Below are positions 20,864-38,008 of a stretch of DNA of 38,033 bases, one piece after another. The stretch is taken from the NCBI GenBank assembly GCA_903900975.1, contig CAIUPE010000059.1, positions 1 through 38,033 of the forward strand, written 5' to 3'. Every line of letters starts with the position of its first letter. The stretch's first letter is position 1. This stretch comes from an uncultured Hyphomicrobiales bacterium. GTDB lineage: Bacteria; Pseudomonadota; Alphaproteobacteria; Rhizobiales; Beijerinckiaceae. The notes below the pieces were generated by a model. That model saw only the letters and a list, made by a program, of their open reading frames with translations. It ran no database searches and was not told where the DNA came from. A program made the position numbers and the translations under genes.

Positions 20864-21886
20864 ATGACGGAATTGGCCAAGAATAGCCTATCCGCACCGG
20901 ACAAGAAGAAGCCGGAGCATCGATTGACCCGTTGGCTTGGCCCCGCGCTGAGCGGCGCGCTTATTCTCGGCTCGATTTTCGTCCTTCGCCTGCAACTGGC
21001 GGATGTGACATTTGCCGATGTGGCAGAGGGTTTGCGCAAGGCCACGGGTGGCCAGCTGGGTCTCGCCATCGGATTTACTTTGCTCAGTTATATGTTTCTG
21101 GCGGGCTATGATACGCTCGCCATGCGGCAATTGGCGATTCGCGTTCGCCTGCTGACGGTCATTTTCGCTTCGTTTACGAGCTATGCCATTTCCTTCACTT
21201 TAGGCTTTCCGCTTTTAACGGCCGGAACGGTGCGATACCGGATTTATTCGGCCAGCGGCATTTCGTCGTCGAAAGTGATGAGTTTGACCTTGATTGCAGG
21301 AATGACCTTCATTCTGGGCATGGCGGTTGTCGTGGGCATTGGTTTGATGTGGCAGGCGGAAGCCATTTCGGCCATCAACCAGGCCACGGCCCATATCAAC
21401 CAATTGGCAGGCATGGCCGTCTTGTCGGGTATTCTCGTCTATCTCGTCTGGGCCGCCGCCAAGCGCCGCCATGTCCGGATTAAGCAATTTATCATTGAAT
21501 TACCCACCCTTGGCGTTTCGCTCGGCCAGCTCGCTTTGGGTGCCGCGGATGTTTGCGCGGCAGGTGCTGTCCTTTATGTGTTTTTGCCGGAAGGACACGG
21601 CATTGCGTTTGAGACTTTTGCGGCTGTCTATGCCTTTGGCTGCATTTTGGGCGTCGTTAGTAATGTTCCGGGCGGATTGGGCGTCTTGGAAAGCACGATG
21701 TTGGGGGCGTTTTCCACCGTCGCAAAGCCAGATCTGATCGGCGCCTTATTGTTGTTTCGCCTTTGTTATTATCTCGGGCCGTTTGTTGTTGGGCTATCAA
21801 GCCTCGGAATTTACGAAATTGTCATGCGACTGTCACACAATCGTGGGGAAGCTAAAGATCATGCGCACCGCGAGGGTGGTTCGTAA
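20864..21886 (+). CDS. PF03706 integral membrane protein (MprF flippase-domain-like, UPF0104)
   Basis: A 340-residue protein with about seven or eight membrane segments. ATG at 20864, with AAGGG five bases upstream, is preferred over the earlier in-frame ATG at 20783. It shows PF03706 landmarks: FASFTSYAISFTLGFPLLTAGTVRYR and the terminal SNVPGGLGVLESTMLGAF. This domain is the membrane (flippase) half of lysyl-phosphatidylglycerol synthase MprF; the catalytic aminoacyl-transferase half is absent. The last 70 bases of the gene contain a PhoB-box-like element, and phoR starts 28 nt after its stop. It could flip or handle a phospholipid or lipid precursor; a link to phosphate stress is inferred from position only. 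Confidence 0.87.
   Translation: MTELAKNSLSAPDKKKPEHRLTRWLGPALSGALILGSIFVLRLQLADVTFADVAEGLRKATGGQLGLAIGFTLLSYMFLAGYDTLAMRQLAIRVRLLTVIFASFTSYAISFTLGFPLLTAGTVRYRIYSASGISSSKVMSLTLIAGMTFILGMAVVVGIGLMWQAEAISAINQATAHINQLAGMAVLSGILVYLVWAAAKRRHVRIKQFIIELPTLGVSLGQLALGAADVCAAGAVLYVFLPEGHGIAFETFAAVYAFGCILGVVSNVPGGLGVLESTMLGAFSTVAKPDLIGALLLFRLCYYLGPFVVGLSSLGIYEIVMRLSHNRGEAKDHAHREGGS
21819..21836 (+). promoter_or_regulatory. PhoB box inside the 3' end of the PF03706 gene, before phoR
   Basis: TTGTCAT (21819-21825), GCGA, CTGTCAC (21830-21836): two 7-bp PhoB half-sites at the required 11-bp period. Thirteen of the 14 half-site bases fit the consensus CTGTCAT/CTGTCAY. It lies 79 bp upstream of the phoR start codon and would allow PhoB to drive phoR-pst from within the upstream gene. 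The -10 region is not obvious (TAAAGA at 21853-21858 is weak), so promoter activity is inferred. Confidence 0.65.
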
Positions 21887-21914: not shown

Positions 21915-22988
21915 ATGGAACTGAGCCAGGCAGCCCTGCTACCGGAAGTTCTTGATGCGCTGTCGGATCCGGTCATTCTCGTCGATGGACGCAAAGTGGT
22001 CACGTTTGGCAATGCCGCGGCTATGGCGTCTTGGCCCGCCCTTGTGAAGGGAGCGCCGCTTTCTTTCACCCTTCGTGCGCCTGATCTGATCGATGCGATC
22101 GATCGTGTCTTGGCATCGGTTGCCCCCATGATCCGTGGGACTATGACCGAACGGTTGCCGGTAGATCGGTTGTTTGATTTTCAAGTGGTCAGCCTGTCGT
22201 CGGCATTGAGCGCAAGTCCGCGCACGGCACCGGCGGTTGTCCTTGTTTTTCGTGATCTGACCGAGGCAAAGCGGCTTGAGGCGATGCGGGTCGATTTTGT
22301 GGCAAATGCGAGCCACGAATTGCGGACGCCTCTGGCATCGCTTCTAGGGTTCATCGAAACGCTGCAAGGTCCGGCCCGCAATGATCCGCTCGCTCAAAGC
22401 CGGTTTTTGGGCATCATGCGGGAGCAAGGTCGTCGCATGGCCCGCTTGATCGACGATTTGCTTTCACTCTCGCGGGTCGAAATGAGCGAGCATCGTCGGC
22501 CGGTGGATCCGGTCGATATGGCGGTTGTGATACGCCAGGTTGCCGACACCCTTCGTCCGGTGGCCGAAGAACGTCAGGTCGCGCTTGAATTTCATTTGCC
22601 GCCGGAGCCTGTCTTGGTGGCGGGCGACCGCGATGAATTGATGCGGGTGGCTGAAAACCTGATCGAGAATGCCATCAAATACGGCCACTCGGGCGGACGG
22701 GTCGAGCTCACGCTCACGAAGGAAGCCTTGGGTCAGGGGAAATGTGGCGAGGGCCATCTCATCGTTCGAGATTTTGGCACCGGTATTTCGGCTGAACATC
22801 TTCCGCGCCTGACCGAGCGATTTTACCGTGTGGACGCGTCCGCCAGCCGCGAAACGGGCGGCACAGGTTTGGGGCTCGCGATCGTCAAACATATTGTAAA
22901 TCGCCACCGGGGCCGCCTAACGATTGAGAGCGAGCTTGGCACAGGGTCGGTCTTCCACGTTATTTTACCCTTGTTTTTGGGGGAATAA
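21915..22988 (+). CDS. phoR: Phosphate regulon sensor histidine kinase PhoR, lacking membrane segments
   Basis: A 357-residue kinase. A PAS-like domain covers about residues 10-115, then HisKA with His134 in NASHELRTPLASLLGF, the N-box ENLIENAIKYG, RDFGTGIS and GGTGLGLAIVKHI. It phosphorylates PhoB when phosphate is scarce. AAGGA sits eight bases before ATG 21915, and an in-frame TAA at 21891-21893 rules out any N-terminal extension. Most PhoR proteins carry one or two N-terminal membrane helices; here none exists, so this PhoR should be soluble or recruited by PhoU or the Pst transporter. It begins the phoR-pstSCAB-phoU-phoB cluster. Assignment rests on context together with the PhoR-like kinase core. 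Confidence 0.9.
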   Translation: MELSQAALLPEVLDALSDPVILVDGRKVVTFGNAAAMASWPALVKGAPLSFTLRAPDLIDAIDRVLASVAPMIRGTMTERLPVDRLFDFQVVSLSSALSASPRTAPAVVLVFRDLTEAKRLEAMRVDFVANASHELRTPLASLLGFIETLQGPARNDPLAQSRFLGIMREQGRRMARLIDDLLSLSRVEMSEHRRPVDPVDMAVVIRQVADTLRPVAEERQVALEFHLPPEPVLVAGDRDELMRVAENLIENAIKYGHSGGRVELTLTKEALGQGKCGEGHLIVRDFGTGISAEHLPRLTERFYRVDASASRETGGTGLGLAIVKHIVNRHRGRLTIESELGTGSVFHVILPLFLGE

Positions 22989-23012: not shown

Positions 23013-23041
23013 CTGTAATTCAAACGTCACATACGTGTCAT
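23013..23041 (+). promoter_or_regulatory. Three-unit PhoB box upstream of pstS
   Basis: Three 7-bp units repeat every 11 bp: CTGTAAT (23013-23019), ACGTCAC (23024-23030) and GTGTCAT (23035-23041), with AT-rich 4-bp spacers. This is the layout of tandem PhoB sites at pst promoters. It lies 115 bp before the pstS start and 25 bp after the phoR stop. The -10 is weak to the eye. It should place pstSCAB under its own phosphate-responsive promoter. Confidence 0.75.
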
Positions 23042-23155
23042 AAAAAGTCCCTAGGGGTGATCGCGACGGTGCAAAAGCCTCGTTAAGGGTGTTGCATTTT
23101 CCCATTTCTCATGAGGGAACGTGTCGCCTCTTCGGTCCAATATGGAGATCATTCC

Positions 23156-24172
23156 GTGAAATTTTCAACCTTGCTTGCCGCTGGTATTGCTCTGGCCGTA
23201 ACCGCTACCGCAGCCTTCGCCGATGATATTTCGGGTGCTGGCGCGACGTTCCCCTTCCCGGTTTATTCGAAATGGGCTGATGCCTATAAGAAGGCAACCG
23301 GTGTTGGTCTCAACTATCAGTCCATTGGCTCGGGCGCTGGCATCAAGCAGATCCAGGCCAAGACGGTAACGTTCGGTGCGACCGACATTCCGCAAAAGGC
23401 GGAAGACCTTGCCAAATTCGGCCTTGTTCAGTGGCCGCAGGTAATGGGCGGCATTGTTCCTGTTGTGAATCTCGAAGGGATTGCCGCTGGCGACCTCGTG
23501 CTCGATGGGCCGACCTTGGCCAATATCTATCTTGGTAAAGTGAAGACGTGGGACGATGCAGCGATCACCAAATTGAACCCAAGTGCTAAGCTGCCAGCGT
23601 TGCCGATCGTTGTGGTTCGCCGTTCGGACGGTTCGGGTACAACGTTTAACTTCACGACCTATCTTTCCTCGGTCAGCCCGGACTTCAAGGCGGCCGTTGG
23701 TGCTGGACAGGCCGTTGAATGGCCTGTGGGCGTCGGCGCCAAGGGCAATGATGGCGTCGCAGCGAATGTGATGCAGACCAAAGGCGCGATCGGCTATGTC
23801 GAATATGCCTTCGCGAAGCAGAACGCGATGGTAAACACCGACATGATCAACTCGGCGGGCAAGCGTGTGAAGCCAAAGCTTGAAAGCTTTGCAGCGGCTG
23901 CCTCGAACGCCGATTGGAACAGCGCTCCCAATTTTAACCTCGTGATTGTTAATCAGCCGGGCGATGCGTCCTGGCCAATGACCAATGCGACCTTTATTCT
24001 GATGTATTCCCAGCCGGACGATAAGGCTGCGGCTGCGGCGGCACTGGCCTTCTTTGATTGGTCTTTTACCAATGGTGCGAAGATGGCAGAAGAGCTTGAT
24101 TATATCCCGATGCCAGTGTCGGTTATCGCGAAGATCAAGTCGTCCGCTTGGACGACCATCATCACGAAGTAA
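23156..24172 (+). CDS. pstS: Phosphate ABC transporter substrate-binding protein
   Basis: A 338-residue periplasmic binding protein. GTG at 23156, with GGAG eight bases upstream, gives a clean signal peptide ([19 protein letters not shown], cleavage after AFA and before DDISG). Phosphate-binding landmarks are [38 protein letters not shown] and the terminal [11 protein letters not shown]. It delivers phosphate to PstCA. A reading frame from ATG 23111 would hide the signal peptide behind 15 extra residues and is less likely. A GC-rich hairpin separates it from pstC. Confidence 0.95.
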
Positions 24173-27652: not shown

Positions 27653-28360
27653 ATGTCCGCAAAGCCGCGTATCTTGATTGTTGAAGACGAGGAACCGCTA
27701 ACGCTTCTCCTACGGTATAATCTTGAAGCAGAGGGCTATGCGGTTGACAGCGCTGCGCGCGGTGATGATGCGGAAATCATGCTGCGGGAACAGGTTCCGG
27801 ATTTGGTTATTCTGGACTGGATGTTGCCGGGTCTGTCGGGTATCGAGCTTTGCCGTCGGCTTCGGTTGCGACCGGAAACGCAAGGCCTTCCTGTGATTTT
27901 GCTCACCGCGCGTGGTGAAGAAAGCGAACGCGTCCGGGGGCTTGCGACCGGAGCAGACGATTATGTCGTCAAGCCCTTTTCAGTTCCCGAGCTTTTGGCA
28001 CGCGTCAGGGCGTTGCTGCGTCGGGCATCGCCGAACCGTGTGGCGACGTCGTTGGAAGCGGGCGACCTCTTGCTTGACCGGTCAAGCCATCGGGTCCGTC
28101 GTGGTAACCGCGAACTTCACCTTGGGCCAACGGAATTCAAGCTGCTGGAATTTTTGATGGAACGGCCGGGCCGCGTATTTACGCGAGGTCAATTGCTCGA
28201 TAGCGTCTGGGGAATGGACGCTGAAATTGACGAGCGAACGGTGGACGTGCATGTCGGGCGTCTCCGCAAGGCGATCAACAAACCACGCGAACGCGATCCT
28301 ATCCGTACCGTAAGAGGCGCGGGCTATTCCTTCGATGAAAATTTTGCCCGAAGGGCCTAA
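27653..28360 (+). CDS. phoB: Phosphate regulon response regulator PhoB
   Basis: A 235-residue OmpR-family regulator. The receiver has the acidic cluster VEDEE (Glu11-Asp12), phospho-acceptor Asp55 in VILDWMLPG, Thr of LLTARGEE and Lys105 of VKPFSV. The winged helix is LHLGPTEFKLLEFLME...RTVDVHVGRLRKAI...RTVRGAGYSF, the PhoB type. It binds the 11-bp repeated boxes seen ahead of pstS, phoR and the olsB-like gene. It is the last gene of the cluster, and a hairpin at its end faces the convergent gcrA. Confidence 0.95.
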   Translation: MSAKPRILIVEDEEPLTLLLRYNLEAEGYAVDSAARGDDAEIMLREQVPDLVILDWMLPGLSGIELCRRLRLRPETQGLPVILLTARGEESERVRGLATGADDYVVKPFSVPELLARVRALLRRASPNRVATSLEAGDLLLDRSSHRVRRGNRELHLGPTEFKLLEFLMERPGRVFTRGQLLDSVWGMDAEIDERTVDVHVGRLRKAINKPRERDPIRTVRGAGYSFDENFARRA

Positions 28361-32921: not shown

Positions 32922-33790
32922 ACCACGCCGACCGCCGCCTAACCCCTGCTCGCCCGGATCTGGCCGCCGATCACCTTCGTGGCATGATCGAATCCCCTCG
33001 TTATGTGGCGGGGGAGCGTCAGATTGTTTTTGACGGATCAGCCGATCTTCGTCGAGCGCCGGTGCCGGACGCCCCGCTTGAAACCGAAGCCCTCCATGGC
33101 GAGATCTTCACCGTGTATGACCGTGACGACGAAGGCTGGAGCTGGGGGCAACTCGAACGTGATGGCTATGTCGGTTTCATGCCGTCAAAAGCCTTAACGG
33201 GCGATATCGCGGCACCGACCCATCGCGTCAGCGTGCTGCGCAGTTTTCTTTACGGTGGTCCCAGCATCAAACTGCCACCGATGGCCGCTTTATCGCTGGG
33301 TAGCCGGGTGACGATCATCGGATGGAAAGAGCCTTTTGCGATTACCCATCGCGGACATTATATCATCGCCGATCATCTGGTTGCCGTTGATCACGTGGAG
33401 CGGGATTTCGTCGCGGTGGCCGAGCGCTTTCTTGGTATTCCCTATTATTGGGGCGGTAAAACCAGTCTTGGGCTCGATTGTTCGGGGCTTATGCAGGCAT
33501 CCCTCAACGCAGCGGGGATCCCGGCACCGCGCGACACCGATATGCAGGAGTCGATGCTGGGGGCACCCTTGGCATGGCCCGATGATTTTTCGACGCTCGA
33601 ACGCGGCGATCTCATCTTTTGGAAAGGCCATGTTGGGGTCATGCGTGATGCTACCGAGTTGGTGCATGCCAGTGGCCATCAGATGCTCGTGGTCTGCGAG
33701 CCTTTGCGTCATGCGGTTGATCGCATTCTTGCAAAGGGGGCGGGCCCCGTCACATCGATCCGTCGATTACCTGCCCTATCGGCTCAATAA
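32918..33790 (+). CDS. NlpC/P60 family cell-wall peptidase with SH3-like domains
   Basis: A 290-residue protein. Residues about 35-155 are bacterial SH3-like repeats and residues about 165-285 the NlpC/P60 cysteine peptidase. Catalytic Cys188 is in LGLDCSGLMQA, His238 in WKGHVGVM, and His250 of LVHASGHQ is the third polar residue. It should cleave peptide cross-links of cell wall, often gamma-D-Glu-diaminopimelate bonds. There is no signal peptide, so a cytoplasmic role in recycling of muropeptides is likely. It overlaps the MarR-like gene by 4 bp and the convergent dehydrogenase gene by 7 bp. Confidence 0.9.
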   Translation: MNHADRRLTPARPDLAADHLRGMIESPRYVAGERQIVFDGSADLRRAPVPDAPLETEALHGEIFTVYDRDDEGWSWGQLERDGYVGFMPSKALTGDIAAPTHRVSVLRSFLYGGPSIKLPPMAALSLGSRVTIIGWKEPFAITHRGHYIIADHLVAVDHVERDFVAVAERFLGIPYYWGGKTSLGLDCSGLMQASLNAAGIPAPRDTDMQESMLGAPLAWPDDFSTLERGDLIFWKGHVGVMRDATELVHASGHQMLVVCEPLRHAVDRILAKGAGPVTSIRRLPALSAQ

Positions 33791-34728
33791 CCTTTTCCCC
33801 GGCTAACCGTATGGCGCAGAGGCTCGCCGCGTTCGACACGGCGGATTTGCGCGGCAATCGCACTGGCCACCGCGAGAGGGTCTGAGACGGAGGCATTATG
33901 CGGGGAGATCGTAACCCTTGGATGGGACCACAGCGGGGATTCCACAGGCAATGGTTCGGTTTGAAAAACGTCGAGAACGACTTCGTGCAAAGTGCCGTCC
34001 TCAAGGCAGGCCAAAAGATCAGATTCAATCTGGAGGTTGCCCCTTCCGGCATTGATCAAAGAGGGTGCTGGCAAACGACCATCCCGTGCCAAGCTCCGCA
34101 ATAAGGGAGCATTGATTATTCCGCGGGTTTCGTCGGTGAGGGGCAGAAGTACCACGAGGATGTCGGTACGCGCGAGAAAGGCCATGAGTTCCGTTTCGCC
34201 CGCATAGGTTTTGATTCCGTCGATCGCCTTGGGGGATTGGCTCCAACCGGCAACATCAAATCCGATCAGGCTCAATTTACGCGCCGCATCGCTTCCCAAA
34301 ACTCCCATGCCCATGACGCCAACGCGAACATCGCAAGCGGCGGGCTGCCAATCATCATCGATCCACCTTTTTTCCGCTTGTTGCTCGCGGTAGCGCCGCG
34401 TCTGTCGAAGGATCGAGAGCGCATGCAAGAGGACATATTCGCTCATCCGGTTGGTGAGATCAGAATCGACCACGCGGGCAATCGGCACATCCGGTATTTG
34501 GGGATCGCGAAAGAGATGATCGACCCCCGCTCCCATCGAGAAAACGGCCTTTAAGTTGGGATAGGCGGCCAATGAACCGGGTGGATGATACCAGGTCATC
34601 GCGAATTCCACCGCCGCCGGATCGAAGACATCACCCAGCGTGACGATGGCGCGATCGGGTAATAGTTCCTGAAACTGCTTTACCCACGGGTTTGGATCAC
34701 CGGAGCCGAGTGCAATTAGTAAACTCAT
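33784..34728 (-). CDS. ghrA: D-isomer 2-hydroxyacid dehydrogenase (glyoxylate/hydroxypyruvate reductase A type)
   Basis: A 314-residue NAD(P)-dependent reductase. The dinucleotide-binding motif is GMGVLG at Gly140-Gly145, and the catalytic triad is Arg229 (NAGRGN), Glu258 (FQTEPLP) and His277 (SPHNAS). The sequence follows the GhrA branch, reducing glyoxylate and hydroxypyruvate. ATG 34728 with AAAGGG at eight bases is my start; GTG at 34734, overlapping the deoA stop in GTGA, is the alternative. It follows deoA in one operon. Confidence 0.87.
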   Translation of the reverse strand: MSLLIALGSGDPNPWVKQFQELLPDRAIVTLGDVFDPAAVEFAMTWYHPPGSLAAYPNLKAVFSMGAGVDHLFRDPQIPDVPIARVVDSDLTNRMSEYVLLHALSILRQTRRYREQQAEKRWIDDDWQPAACDVRVGVMGMGVLGSDAARKLSLIGFDVAGWSQSPKAIDGIKTYAGETELMAFLARTDILVVLLPLTDETRGIINAPLLRSLARDGRLPAPSLINAGRGNLQIESDLLACLEDGTLHEVVLDVFQTEPLPVESPLWSHPRVTISPHNASVSDPLAVASAIAAQIRRVERGEPLRHTVSRGKGY

Positions 34729-34730
34729 GG

Positions 34731-36053
34731 TCACAGCCCTTTGCCTTGAATACGGTCATAGATCAGTGGATTTTCCGCAGGTTTTTGAGGCCCGATAACA
34801 TAGGCGCGCTTCAAATCCGCTATGGCTGCATCCGCAGCCTTGTCCGAGCGGGCATGAACAAAGCCGAGCGGTAAATCTTTGGATATTTTAGTGCCTAAAG
34901 GCAAAAGCGACGTAAAGCCAACGGCCGGGTCAATGGGGTCTTCAGCCCGTGTCCGACCACCGCCCAAGGAAACCACGGCCAATCCGATGGACCGGGTGGC
35001 GATGGCGGTTACGAAGCCCTCTTGAGCCGCAAAAACCGGGCGGATGATGGGGGCCGATGGAAGATGATGGTGTGGGCGAGCGATCAAATCCGACGGCCCG
35101 CCCAAAGCCGCTACCATGCGTTGAAAATGCTCGGCTGCTGCCCCGCCTGCAATGGCTGATTCAACCTTGAAACGTGCCGTTTCGAGATCTGGCGCCAGCC
35201 CACCAATCAACACCATTTCGGCCCCAAGCGCTACAACGACCGCATGCAAACGGGGGTCCCGATGGGTACCGGTGAGATAATCAATGGCATTGATCACTTC
35301 AACGCTATTTCCCGCGGCCGTAGCGAGCGGTTCGTTCATATCGGTTATCAGGGCCGTTGTTGGTAAACCGGCGCCGGTGGCAACCTCTGCGAGGCTTGCA
35401 GCCAAATCTTTTGCGCCCTCCAGCGTCGGCATAAAGGCACCACTTCCGGTCTTCACATCCATGACCAGACCTTGCAATCCGGCAGCCAATTTCTTCGACA
35501 GAATGGACGCTGTGATTAGAGCAATCGATTCAACCGTCGCGGTGATATCGCGGATGGCGTAGAGTTTTTTATCGGCAGGGGCGAGATCGGCCGTCTGGCC
35601 AATAATGGCGACACCCGTTTCGCGTACTACCTTTCGAAAAAGGGACAAATCAGGTTGGGAAACATAGCCGGGTATTGCGTCCAGCTTGTCCAAAGTACCA
35701 CCGGTATGCCCTAAGCCCCGGCCGGAAATCATCGGCACATATCCACCGCATGCCGCAATGGCCGATGCAAGCATCAGGCTCACATTATCGCCGATTCCGC
35801 CGGTCGAATGTTTGTCTAGAACCGGCCCTGGCATATCGGACCAATCGAGAATAGTACCCGACTGCATCATCGCAGCGGTCAATGCCACGCGCTCAGCCAT
35901 GGTCATTCCGCGAAAAAACACGGCCATCGCAAAGGCAGCCCCTTGGGCGTCTGTCACGCGGCCTTCGCCGAGGCCCGATATCAATTGGACAATCTCGTCA
36001 CGGCTTAATTCGTTGCCGTCACGCTTTTTGCGAATGATTTCTTGCGGCAACAT
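34731..36053 (-). CDS. deoA: Thymidine phosphorylase
   Basis: A 440-residue enzyme of the expected length. The phosphate-binding signature is DKHSTGGIGDN with Lys81, His82 and Ser83; LGHTGGTLDKLDAIPGY and VMDVKTGSGAFM are further hallmarks of the pyrimidine nucleoside phosphorylase family. It splits thymidine into thymine and deoxyribose-1-phosphate. GGAG lies seven bases before ATG 36053. It is followed by the hydroxyacid dehydrogenase, perhaps in one operon; no other deo genes are present. Confidence 0.93.
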   Translation of the reverse strand: MLPQEIIRKKRDGNELSRDEIVQLISGLGEGRVTDAQGAAFAMAVFFRGMTMAERVALTAAMMQSGTILDWSDMPGPVLDKHSTGGIGDNVSLMLASAIAACGGYVPMISGRGLGHTGGTLDKLDAIPGYVSQPDLSLFRKVVRETGVAIIGQTADLAPADKKLYAIRDITATVESIALITASILSKKLAAGLQGLVMDVKTGSGAFMPTLEGAKDLAASLAEVATGAGLPTTALITDMNEPLATAAGNSVEVINAIDYLTGTHRDPRLHAVVVALGAEMVLIGGLAPDLETARFKVESAIAGGAAAEHFQRMVAALGGPSDLIARPHHHLPSAPIIRPVFAAQEGFVTAIATRSIGLAVVSLGGGRTRAEDPIDPAVGFTSLLPLGTKISKDLPLGFVHARSDKAADAAIADLKRAYVIGPQKPAENPLIYDRIQGKGL

Positions 36054-36119
36054 GATCTGTCTCCGGACTTCCCATTCTCCGGTGATACAGTGCTTTTGTA
36101 AGAAAAACAGGCCTAAAAA

Positions 36120-37007
36120 TTATGCGGCGTAACGGGTGGCATCCTCGCCATAATGGTCGATATAGCGGGGGTGGATGGCTTTTACGGGAAGGATAACCAG
36201 CACATCCGTGGTGCCAAATTGATGGTCAATCACGGCCCCGTCCCCAATTTTTGCGCCTACCCTGAGATAGCCTTTAATCAGCGGCGGTAGCGCGTGCAAC
36301 GCCAATTTGCCATTTACCGCTTCACGTTGCATCCGGTCCATCGCAATCCGCCGGTTAGGCAAAGCGGACGCACGCCACTCGCCTTCAGCCCGGGCTGAAT
36401 GATGCAGGAAACTCAACGGTAAAGCGAGCGCATCCGGATCGGTACCCTCGAAACTCGCGCAACCGAACATCACATCGATTTTGTAACGCTTCACATACGC
36501 CCAAATGCCATGCCAAAGCAGCTCAACCGTTCGTTTATCGCGGTAAGGCTTGGCCACGCAAGACCGGCCCAGTTCGAGGAATCGAGCGTCTGGATGAGCG
36601 GCCAGCATGGGCCCGATATCGAATTCGGACGCCGTATAAAAGCCGTTATAGTGGTCGGCGATTTCTTGCCGAAGCAGGCGATAGGTTCCCACCACTTTGG
36701 GTTTGATGTTCGCATGGTCGATAACCAGCAAATGGTCGCATATGGTGTCGAACGCATCAATATCGCGCCGCTTCAACCGCGATACGAGGTCCGGCAAAGC
36801 CGACATTTCTTCGCAAAAGACGGTGTAACGCAGACGTTGCGCCCGCTTGATGTCTTTTTTGGTCGAAGCCAACCGAACTTCGAGAGATCCTATACGACCT
36901 AGGGTAAAACGGTCGTGCAACGGCTTGGGAAAGAAAGATTGAATAAAGCCCGACCCCGTGCGCGCCGCCGAAACAACCTGTTCGGTAATGACTTTGTGAG
37001 CGAGCAT
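36120..37007 (-). CDS. olsB: OlsB-like acyltransferase (ornithine lipid synthesis, GNAT fold)
   Basis: A 295-residue protein resembling OlsB (about 296 residues in Sinorhizobium), which acylates ornithine with a 3-hydroxyacyl group to give lyso-ornithine lipid. Landmarks: RLASTKKDIKRAQRLRYTVFCEEM, ICDHLLVID, VVGTYRLLR, FLELGRSCVAKPYRDKRTVELLWHGI and MFGCASFEGTDP. ATG 37007 is preceded by AGGGGA at about eight bases. No olsA lies beside it, so the pathway would need a distant partner. A strong PhoB-box array sits in its promoter, which fits a phosphorus-free lipid replacing phospholipid when phosphate is low. Confidence 0.85.
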   Translation of the reverse strand: MLAHKVITEQVVSAARTGSGFIQSFFPKPLHDRFTLGRIGSLEVRLASTKKDIKRAQRLRYTVFCEEMSALPDLVSRLKRRDIDAFDTICDHLLVIDHANIKPKVVGTYRLLRQEIADHYNGFYTASEFDIGPMLAAHPDARFLELGRSCVAKPYRDKRTVELLWHGIWAYVKRYKIDVMFGCASFEGTDPDALALPLSFLHHSARAEGEWRASALPNRRIAMDRMQREAVNGKLALHALPPLIKGYLRVGAKIGDGAVIDHQFGTTDVLVILPVKAIHPRYIDHYGEDATRYAA

Positions 37008-37054
37008 GGTAGCGATCCCCTGCAGAGCCGGCCGATCCGAACGAATCGACCTCC

Positions 37055-37101
37055 ATTATATATGACAAAGTCATCATGAAACGCTGACGATCTTATGACA
37101 G
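37055..37101 (-). promoter_or_regulatory. PhoB-box array and -10 of the olsB-like gene
   Basis: Read on the minus strand: CTGTCAT (37101-37095), TCGTCAG (37090-37084), TCATGAT (37079-37073) and TTGTCAT (37068-37062), each starting 11 bp after the previous. The first two, CTGTCAT-AAGA-TCGTCAG, form a near-consensus PhoB box. A perfect TATAAT lies at 37060-37055, directly after the fourth unit, with no good -35, as expected of an activator-dependent promoter. The mRNA would begin near 37048, giving a leader of about 40 nt. Confidence 0.78.
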
Positions 37102-37113
37102 TCGTCTGAATAG

Positions 37114-38008
37114 TTATCCGAGGGTTTCACGCGCGCGATAGCTCAAGGCTTCGGCGAGATGCAGGCGACGGATTCCATCCGACCCGTCGAGATCGGCTAA
37201 GGTGCGCGCGACTTTCAAGACGCGGTGATAGCCGCGCGCCGTCAGTTTCATGGCGTCAGCCGCGCTGCGGAGCAAGGCAAGGCCGCTCTCATCAAGCTGG
37301 GTAATGGCGGTCAGATGCTGGACGGGGCAGGTCGCATTGCAGGTAACATTGGCAAGTCCAAGCGCTTCGAATCGGTGAGTTTGGATGTCTCTCGCGCGTG
37401 CAACTCGACGCGCAACGCTTTTGGATTCCTCGGATTTTCCCGGCGCAATCAAATCGGCAGCCGTCACAGCAGGGACTTCAATCACAAGGTCGATCCGATC
37501 CAGAAACGGACCGGAAATGCGGGATTGATACTGCGCCATGCAGGTGGCGTTGGGGGGTTTTTTTGCAGGCAAAGCCTGGCTCTGTGGCTTTGCCACAGCG
37601 GCACGGGTTCATCGCGGCAATGAGCTGAAAACGGGCCGGATAGGTCACGCGGTGATTGGCTCTTGCGATAATCACCTCGCCCGATTCGAGTGGCTGGCGC
37701 AGGCTATCGAGTACTTGGGGCTGGAATTCAGGTAATTCATCCAAGAATAACACGCCGTGATGCGCGAGCGAAACTTCGCCGGGTCGCGCCCGAAGACCAC
37801 CGCCGACCAAAGCGGCCATCGACGCGGAATGGTGCGGGGCGCGAAAGGGTCGCCGATCGGTGATCTCGCCCCCCGCCAAAGCGCCCGCTACCGATTGGAT
37901 CATCGAGACTTCCAACAGCTCGCGCGGTCCGAGGGCCGGTAAAATCGAGGGCAATCGGGCGGCCAGCATCGATTTTCCTGCACCGGGCGGTCCGGATAAG
38001 AGCATGTT
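37114..38008 (-). pseudogene. comM: comM (YifB) Mg-chelatase-like AAA+ ATPase, 5'-truncated and frameshifted
   Basis: Two frames together give about 296 residues of ComM, the helicase that supports branch migration in natural transformation. Upper frame (38008 to about 37560): NMLLSGPPGAGKSML with Walker A, FLDELPEF (Walker B), FQLIAAMNPCRCG. Lower frame (about 37560 to 37114): QYQSRISGPFLDRIDLVIEVP and the C-terminal domain to the TAA at 37116-37114. The switch lies in an A7C6 tract (minus strand, 37564-37552); one A fewer would restore a continuous gene reading CKKPPNATCMAQYQ. The first part, about 215 residues, is missing at the right edge, and an in-frame TAA (38011-38009) precedes Asn-Met. 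It may be a sequencing or cloning artefact rather than a true pseudogene. Confidence 0.8.

Follow-up and report, generated by a model that had tools for sequence, protein, structure and literature searches.

Genes of the olsB locus

The window, a stretch of 38,033 nucleotides that makes up a whole contig, comes from a 2.9 Mb genome whose nearest named records are metagenome bins of Hyphomicrobiales, Beijerinckiaceae and Alphaproteobacteria. The gene of interest, which a first-pass annotation had called OlsB-like, passes the curated OlsB model NF052555 (Table 1); a PDB sequence search with its product returned nothing up to E = 1. Two genes, deoA and ghrA, had been placed downstream on the same strand. 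Their order and strand are as described and deoA scores over its cut-off, but the second gene falls well under the cut-off of its model and is better termed GhrA-like. The deoA gene adjoins olsB in all 11 genus loci examined (11/11).

Upstream of olsB, on the same strand, are two open reading frames (ORFs) with Mg-chelatase domains, which we take to be of ComM type. They appear to be one Mg-chelatase-like gene (37114-38005) split into two overlapping frames, 37114-37596 and 37478-38005. The split lies near a G/T run (about 37554-37567), and an AT-rich tail closes the contig; the gene may be broken, or there may be an error in the sequence.

The window also carries a set of Pho genes. The first-pass annotation located phoB about 9 kb away, in agreement with the measured distances (the gene ends 7.8 kb short of olsB and 8.7 kb short of the repeat array described below). 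In this PhoB, the C-terminal domain can be aligned with E. coli PhoB (1gxp); the recognition helices are similar, both sequences having RTVDVH..RLRKA. A phoR-like gene, pstS, genes for permease and ATPase components and phoU complete the set. In five of the eight genus genomes in which both were found, olsB and pstS are on one contig, ~12 kb apart.

Table 1. Features of the window, with the scores on which each assignment is based.
Feature	Position	Strand	Evidence
phoR-upstream Pho box	21819-21836	+	17.3 bits
phoR-like sensor kinase	21915-22988	+	TIGR02966, 319.2 bits, just below cut-off 334.2
pstS Pho box array (best site of window)	23013-23041	+	22.2 bits (two-unit); 26.7 bits (four-unit sum)
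pstS	23111-24172	+	TIGR00975 and NF008171, over cut-off
Permease and ATPase genes, phoU (after pstS)	to 27620		PhoU: TIGR02135, over cut-off; permease and ABC domains
phoB response regulator	27653-28360	+	TIGR02154, 334.6 bits, cut-off 296.2
GhrA-like 2-hydroxyacid dehydrogenase	33784-34734	-	PF02826; NF012013, 218 bits, cut-off 403
deoA, thymidine phosphorylase (next gene downstream of olsB)	34731-36053	-	TIGR02643, over cut-off
olsB, L-ornithine N-alpha-acyltransferase, 295 aa	36120-37007	-	NF052555, 399.9 bits, cut-off 320; PF13444
Predicted -10 region TATATAAT	37055-37062	-	TATATA (37062-37057) by pstS spacing rule; TATAAT (37060-37055) as first read
Unit 4, predicted PhoB half-site TTGTCAT	37062-37068	-	9.7 bits, pstS-trained matrix
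Unit 3 register, TCATGAT	37073-37079	-	-4.6 bits; not a PhoB half-site by score
Unit 2, weak predicted PhoB half-site TCGTCAG	37084-37090	-	1.6 bits, pstS-trained matrix
Unit 1, predicted PhoB half-site CTGTCAT	37095-37101	-	11.7 bits, pstS-trained half-site matrix

Outside the window, the same genome encodes OlsA (G000:C54:20662-21459; NF052553, 319.6 bits, cut-off 300). A weak Pho-like site (9.2-13.2 bits) lies 57 to 63 nt upstream of olsA in 6 of the 11 genus loci scanned. BtaA was not found in this genome by a PF11899 search. Within the genus, olsB is present in 11 of 12 genomes; the remaining one (G006), although listed as 100 per cent complete, gave no OlsB match, while matches to OlsA and to an OlsF-N-like gene (see below) are present.

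The repeat array and its predicted -10 region

Read on the minus strand from 37101 to 37055, the region before olsB consists of four 7-mers, CTGTCAT, TCGTCAG, TCATGAT and TTGTCAT (units 1 to 4), which are separated by aaga, cgtt and gact, respectively, and followed by atataat. The 7-mers begin at 37101, 37090, 37079 and 37068, and so the 11-bp steps of the first-pass annotation are exact. The same annotation took all four for PhoB half-sites. As a well-established PhoB target, pstS served for training, with no olsB input: the sequences before pstS in 29 loci from this genome and its relatives (29 of 31 fetched; L128 and L141 were dropped, the loci being clipped) gave an 18-bp matrix, and a half-site matrix trained on pstS promoters was used to score the single units. 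By this measure units 1 and 4 are strong and unit 2 is weak, while unit 3 scores below zero. A two-repeat Pho box is present (CTGTCAT-N4-TCGTCAG, 13.8 bits, the second repeat being weak), but the region is not a strict four-unit PhoB array, in which each unit would look like a half-site.

The top matrix sites of the window are those of pstS (22.2 bits; this locus belongs to the training set) and phoR (17.3 bits), with olsB third. The pstS array contains three clearly positive half-sites. The strong phoR site sits inside the 3' end of the preceding ORF (a PF03706-like membrane protein); a site of at least 10.0 bits is found upstream of phoR in 9 of 10 genus pstS loci, to which coding constraint may contribute. 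A strict pattern search of the whole genome gave three matches only, two of them overlapping, and no regulon was derived from it.

Could the array be no more than TGTCA-like words that happen to line up in an AT-rich gap? Of 300 first-order Markov windows, 158 contain a two-unit box that scores as high; such a box by itself is therefore not significant over the whole window. The four-unit sum, in contrast, was reached in 1/300 such windows and the score of units 1, 2 and 4 in 0/300. Since the two-unit box is common by chance, the case is carried by the fourth unit and by conservation. Across the five closest genomes (81 to 100 per cent identity in OlsB), 29 of the 40 array columns are invariant, as opposed to 1/12 between the preceding ORF stop and the array and 6/54 between the array and the ATG (7/66 for the flanks). 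Six of the seven positions of unit 2 and the TGTCAT of unit 4 are invariant in these genomes, and the TGTCAY of unit 1 is kept across the sampled olsB promoters. Together with the recurrence of such sites before other olsB genes (see below), these figures reduce a chance origin to a next to negligible probability. A palindrome around unit 4 (TGAC-N3-GTCA) was also considered; it was seen by eye in L001 and L002, is absent from L003-L005, and was discarded.

The position of the -10 was assessed from the pstS promoters. In 26 of 27 pstS sites (L136 and L138 of the 29 loci gave none) the -10 starts with TA 10 nt past the proximal half-site, in an alignment whose matrix was seeded with TA; a plain count based on the furthest-downstream site to reach 9 bits gives 17/27. 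The perfect TATAAT noted in the first-pass annotation is indeed present, 47 nt before the olsB ATG, but this spacing rule favours an overlapping TATATA two bases upstream. In the five nearest genomes, TA lies 10 nt past unit 3 in 5/5 and past units 2 and 4 in 0/5, and unit 4 was rejected as the activating unit by the same rule. Of the 11 genus genomes with olsB, seven have the fixed TA and four lack it, namely L035 and L020, which do have a box, and L010 and L009. No sigma-70-like -35/-10 pair was detected around TATAAT (the sole pair in 33700-37600 is at 36217-36190, inside olsB), and a sigma-70 promoter with its own -35 was rejected for want of a -35 partner. The absence of a -35 is as expected of a PhoB-dependent promoter. 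The layout is hence that of a Pho promoter, with a -10 about 10 nt past the proximal unit (here the weak unit 3) and no need of a -35.

The last T of unit 4 is also the first base of the predicted -10. In the same register, 12 of the 27 pstS sites carry TC and eight GTC, the core of a half-site; a unit set against the -10 is thus not peculiar to olsB. The first-pass annotation had proposed that four units, rather than two, give graded or especially strong control. This idea is not borne out: unit 3 fails by score, unit 4 occupies a register in which 12 of the 27 pstS sites already show the TC of a third half-site core, and multi-unit arrays also stand before pstS of the window and before another ORF of the genome.

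The E. coli pstS promoter, with its two tandem Pho boxes, resembles the olsB array in having four units spaced by 11 bp, of which the third is weak. Its -10 is found some 10 nt beyond the last of them, while the predicted -10 of olsB starts at the last base of the fourth unit. The E. coli phoB promoter offers another parallel in that PhoB half-sites overlap its -10 region, but those sites are weak, antisense and have 5 bp between their cores (PMC6194859). Unit 4, by contrast, is strong and on the coding strand. Multiple Pho boxes are likewise described for E. coli ugp (PMC4415409).

The overlap of unit 4 with the -10 raises the possibility of self-limitation, in which phosphorylated PhoB (PhoB~P) would first occupy the upstream units and activate; at high levels it would also occupy unit 4 and block the polymerase, giving a pulse of expression and not a higher level. 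The shared base would permit this, and the weak half-sites around the E. coli phoB -10 repress at high PhoB~P, as reported in PMC6194859. Those repressing sites differ from the strong unit 4 in strength, strand and spacing, however, and some of the pstS promoters, which should be fully activated, share the core in this register (TC 12/27, GTC 8/27). We regard self-limitation as improbable.

Recurrence of pstS-like sites and an olsB-type element

Sites of this kind were sought before olsB in other genomes. The 110 loci comprise 30 fetched loci, 83 of 100 genomes having given a match, and the top 80 of 140. Being those that best match this OlsB, they are closely related, and form neither a random nor an independent sample. 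The motif set holds 94 of them. Twelve were left out as duplicate contigs, and four others were scored later (L015, 13.0 bits; L016, 6.9; L018, 7.8; L019, 8.9).

An unsupervised motif search of the 94 upstream regions returned one dominant promoter motif, roughly tcTGTCACAnAActGTcngAaanntGTgaTnT. Independently of it, the pstS matrix finds a site of at least 7 bits in 74/94 regions, versus 83/3472 control windows (taken from the same loci, overlapping each other and including coding DNA), and 66 of these 74 sites coincide with the unsupervised motif. Relative to shuffled regions, 74/94 exceed the 95th percentile and 38/94 the 99th; read on the reverse strand, the corresponding numbers are 8/94 and 0/94, with 8 of 94 passing the pstS-matrix mark. 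In 20/94 regions there is no pstS-like site of 7 bits. The recurrence of pstS-like sites before olsB is the strongest evidence that the array holds a PhoB site, as far as sequence comparison can tell, and along with the PhoB model match and the recognition helix it upholds PhoB as the likely regulator of olsB, as first proposed.

Another regulator of the OmpR family, such as ChvI or CenR, might use the repeats instead. Both govern genes of the cell envelope in Alphaproteobacteria, and direct repeats are frequent targets of OmpR-family proteins (PMC9275681 and PMC9731502). The motifs reported there are different, namely TGA-N8-TGA for CenR and TTGC-N3-GCAA or N-GCC-N8-GCC for ChvI, and on this ground the two were rejected as candidates; moreover, the olsB sites were found by a matrix trained on pstS promoters. 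Control by a regulator of this kind is very unlikely.

The olsB promoters are similar to related pstS promoters in their 11-bp half-sites, in the TA 10 nt past the box and, in part, in the half-site core against the -10. They differ in two ways. Firstly, the second half-site is weaker. Secondly, 42 of 88 olsB sites carry an element, TRTGNT, at offset 23, while none of the pstS sites has it (0/27); no other offset from 0 to 52 occurs in more than two olsB sites (these counts omit L009, L020, L026, L039, L058 and L100, which have no convincing motif). The element lies 17 nt from the first PhoB half-site, for example in L037, L087 and L107, and is seen in Roseibium, Ancylobacter, Pannonibacter, Chelatococcus, Stappia, Blastochloris, Prosthecomicrobium and others. 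In the window its position is the unit 3 register, where CATGAT stands, and there is no strict match. TRTGNT may be a -10, in keeping with its 17-nt distance, or a degenerate third PhoB half-site; its second base is G in 24 of 42 cases, which speaks against a plain -10. Among the open papers listed, which are not searchable for the motif itself, we found none on an olsB-specific third element.

The element bears on a further reading of the array, namely that only units 1 and 2 are PhoB sites, that unit 3 is the olsB-type element and that the TGTCATA of unit 4 is an extended -10. The score of unit 3 (-4.6 bits) and the promoter-like 17 nt between first half-site and TRTGNT (42/88 sites) are in its favour, and TGTCATA fits the extended -10 rule (TG-n-CATAnn). 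Against it stand the 24/42 elements with G in second place, the 9.7 bits of unit 4 in exact 11-bp register, and two genus relatives, L036 and L037, that score above zero at all four registers. We consider this reading possible but rather unlikely. In L037 and L036 unit 3 is TTGTGAT and GTGTGAT (4.5 and 5.1 bits, respectively), and since both loci are positive throughout, the four-register array looks like a real feature of the lineage as judged from these alignments, with weak inner units. There are exceptions within the genus; L010 is positive at units 1 and 3 only, and L009 has no site.

A broader and speculative proposal, which we think quite unlikely to hold in full, is that the olsB promoters of the order, unlike those of pstS, form a PhoB class of their own, marked by TGTCAY, a second half-site that is weak, and TRTGNT fixed 17 nt after the first half-site. 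In the clade to which this genome belongs, a pstS-like geometry would be superimposed on it, shifted downstream by one 11-bp step, such that the level of PhoB~P would choose between weak, full and self-limited expression of a gene for membrane remodelling.

Predicted PhoB control of ornithine-lipid synthesis

The stretch is very probably a conserved, PhoB-activated promoter for olsB, of a known kind. Its sites are conserved and match independent pstS sites, and the genome has the genes for PhoB, a PhoR-like kinase, the Pst system, OlsB and OlsA. From these we infer PhoB binding, the direction of regulation and the start site as follows: (i) at low phosphate, the PhoR-like kinase would phosphorylate PhoB; (ii) PhoB~P would bind head to tail in the 11-bp register, strongly at units 1 and 4 and weakly at units 2 and 3; (iii) bound PhoB~P would stand in for the -35 element and recruit RNA polymerase to TATATAAT; and (iv) OlsB would N-acylate ornithine, with OlsA completing a phosphorus-free ornithine lipid, so that the lipids of the cell would be expected to change.

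Much of this has precedent. Ornithine-lipid synthesis is PhoB-dependent in S. meliloti, and a putative Pho box precedes olsB of A. tumefaciens (PMC3972451). Genes for glycolipids and ornithine lipids have Pho boxes in A. tumefaciens, S. meliloti and M. loti, and such boxes are predicted before olsB in Burkholderia (PMC7814305). Several of these bacteria make more ornithine lipid when phosphate is low (PMC3972451, PMC7814305). The array described here is the same as these Rhizobiales lipid-gene boxes in consisting of PhoB-type direct repeats upstream of an ornithine-lipid gene; it differs in that the matrix used in PMC7814305 is an 18-bp, two-unit one, whereas the olsB array runs through two further in-register units to the -10. 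PhoB control of olsB is, then, an arrangement already reported in related bacteria, and mostly ordinary. What is gained is its likely extension to an uncultured genus. Because no BtaA was found, ornithine lipid may be an important phosphorus-free replacement lipid in this genome (other classes, made by glycolipid and sulfolipid synthases, were outside the search).

Two other genes of the genome, both outside the window, also stand behind repeats of this kind. The first is a separate gene for a 325-aa acyltransferase (G000:C45:28200-29174; L144/L160). Its product matches OlsF, a bifunctional ornithine-lipid synthase, over the N-terminal half of that protein (PF19576; 131 bits, under the cut-off), and the gene follows an ORF that we assume to be kdsA. 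A Pho box (12.8-21.3 bits) lies directly upstream of this OlsF-N-like gene in 12/12 loci, from 11 of the 12 genus genomes; outside the genus, 8/18 loci have one that reaches 9 bits, six of them among the eight with 54-66% identity. In all 12 genus loci an ATG is 12-13 nt past the expected -10 start, which suggests, from spacing, a leaderless mRNA; TA is found at that start in 6/12. Along with the fixed TRTGNT element, this Pho-boxed gene provides testable leads on the wiring of lipid remodelling in the order.

The second is a 279-aa ORF preceded by a clean three-unit array, TGTCAT-N5-TGTCAT-N5-TGTCAT (G000:C93:3745-3772; L173/L174). Its product gave no Pfam match at 1e-6, and is presumably an outer-membrane protein.
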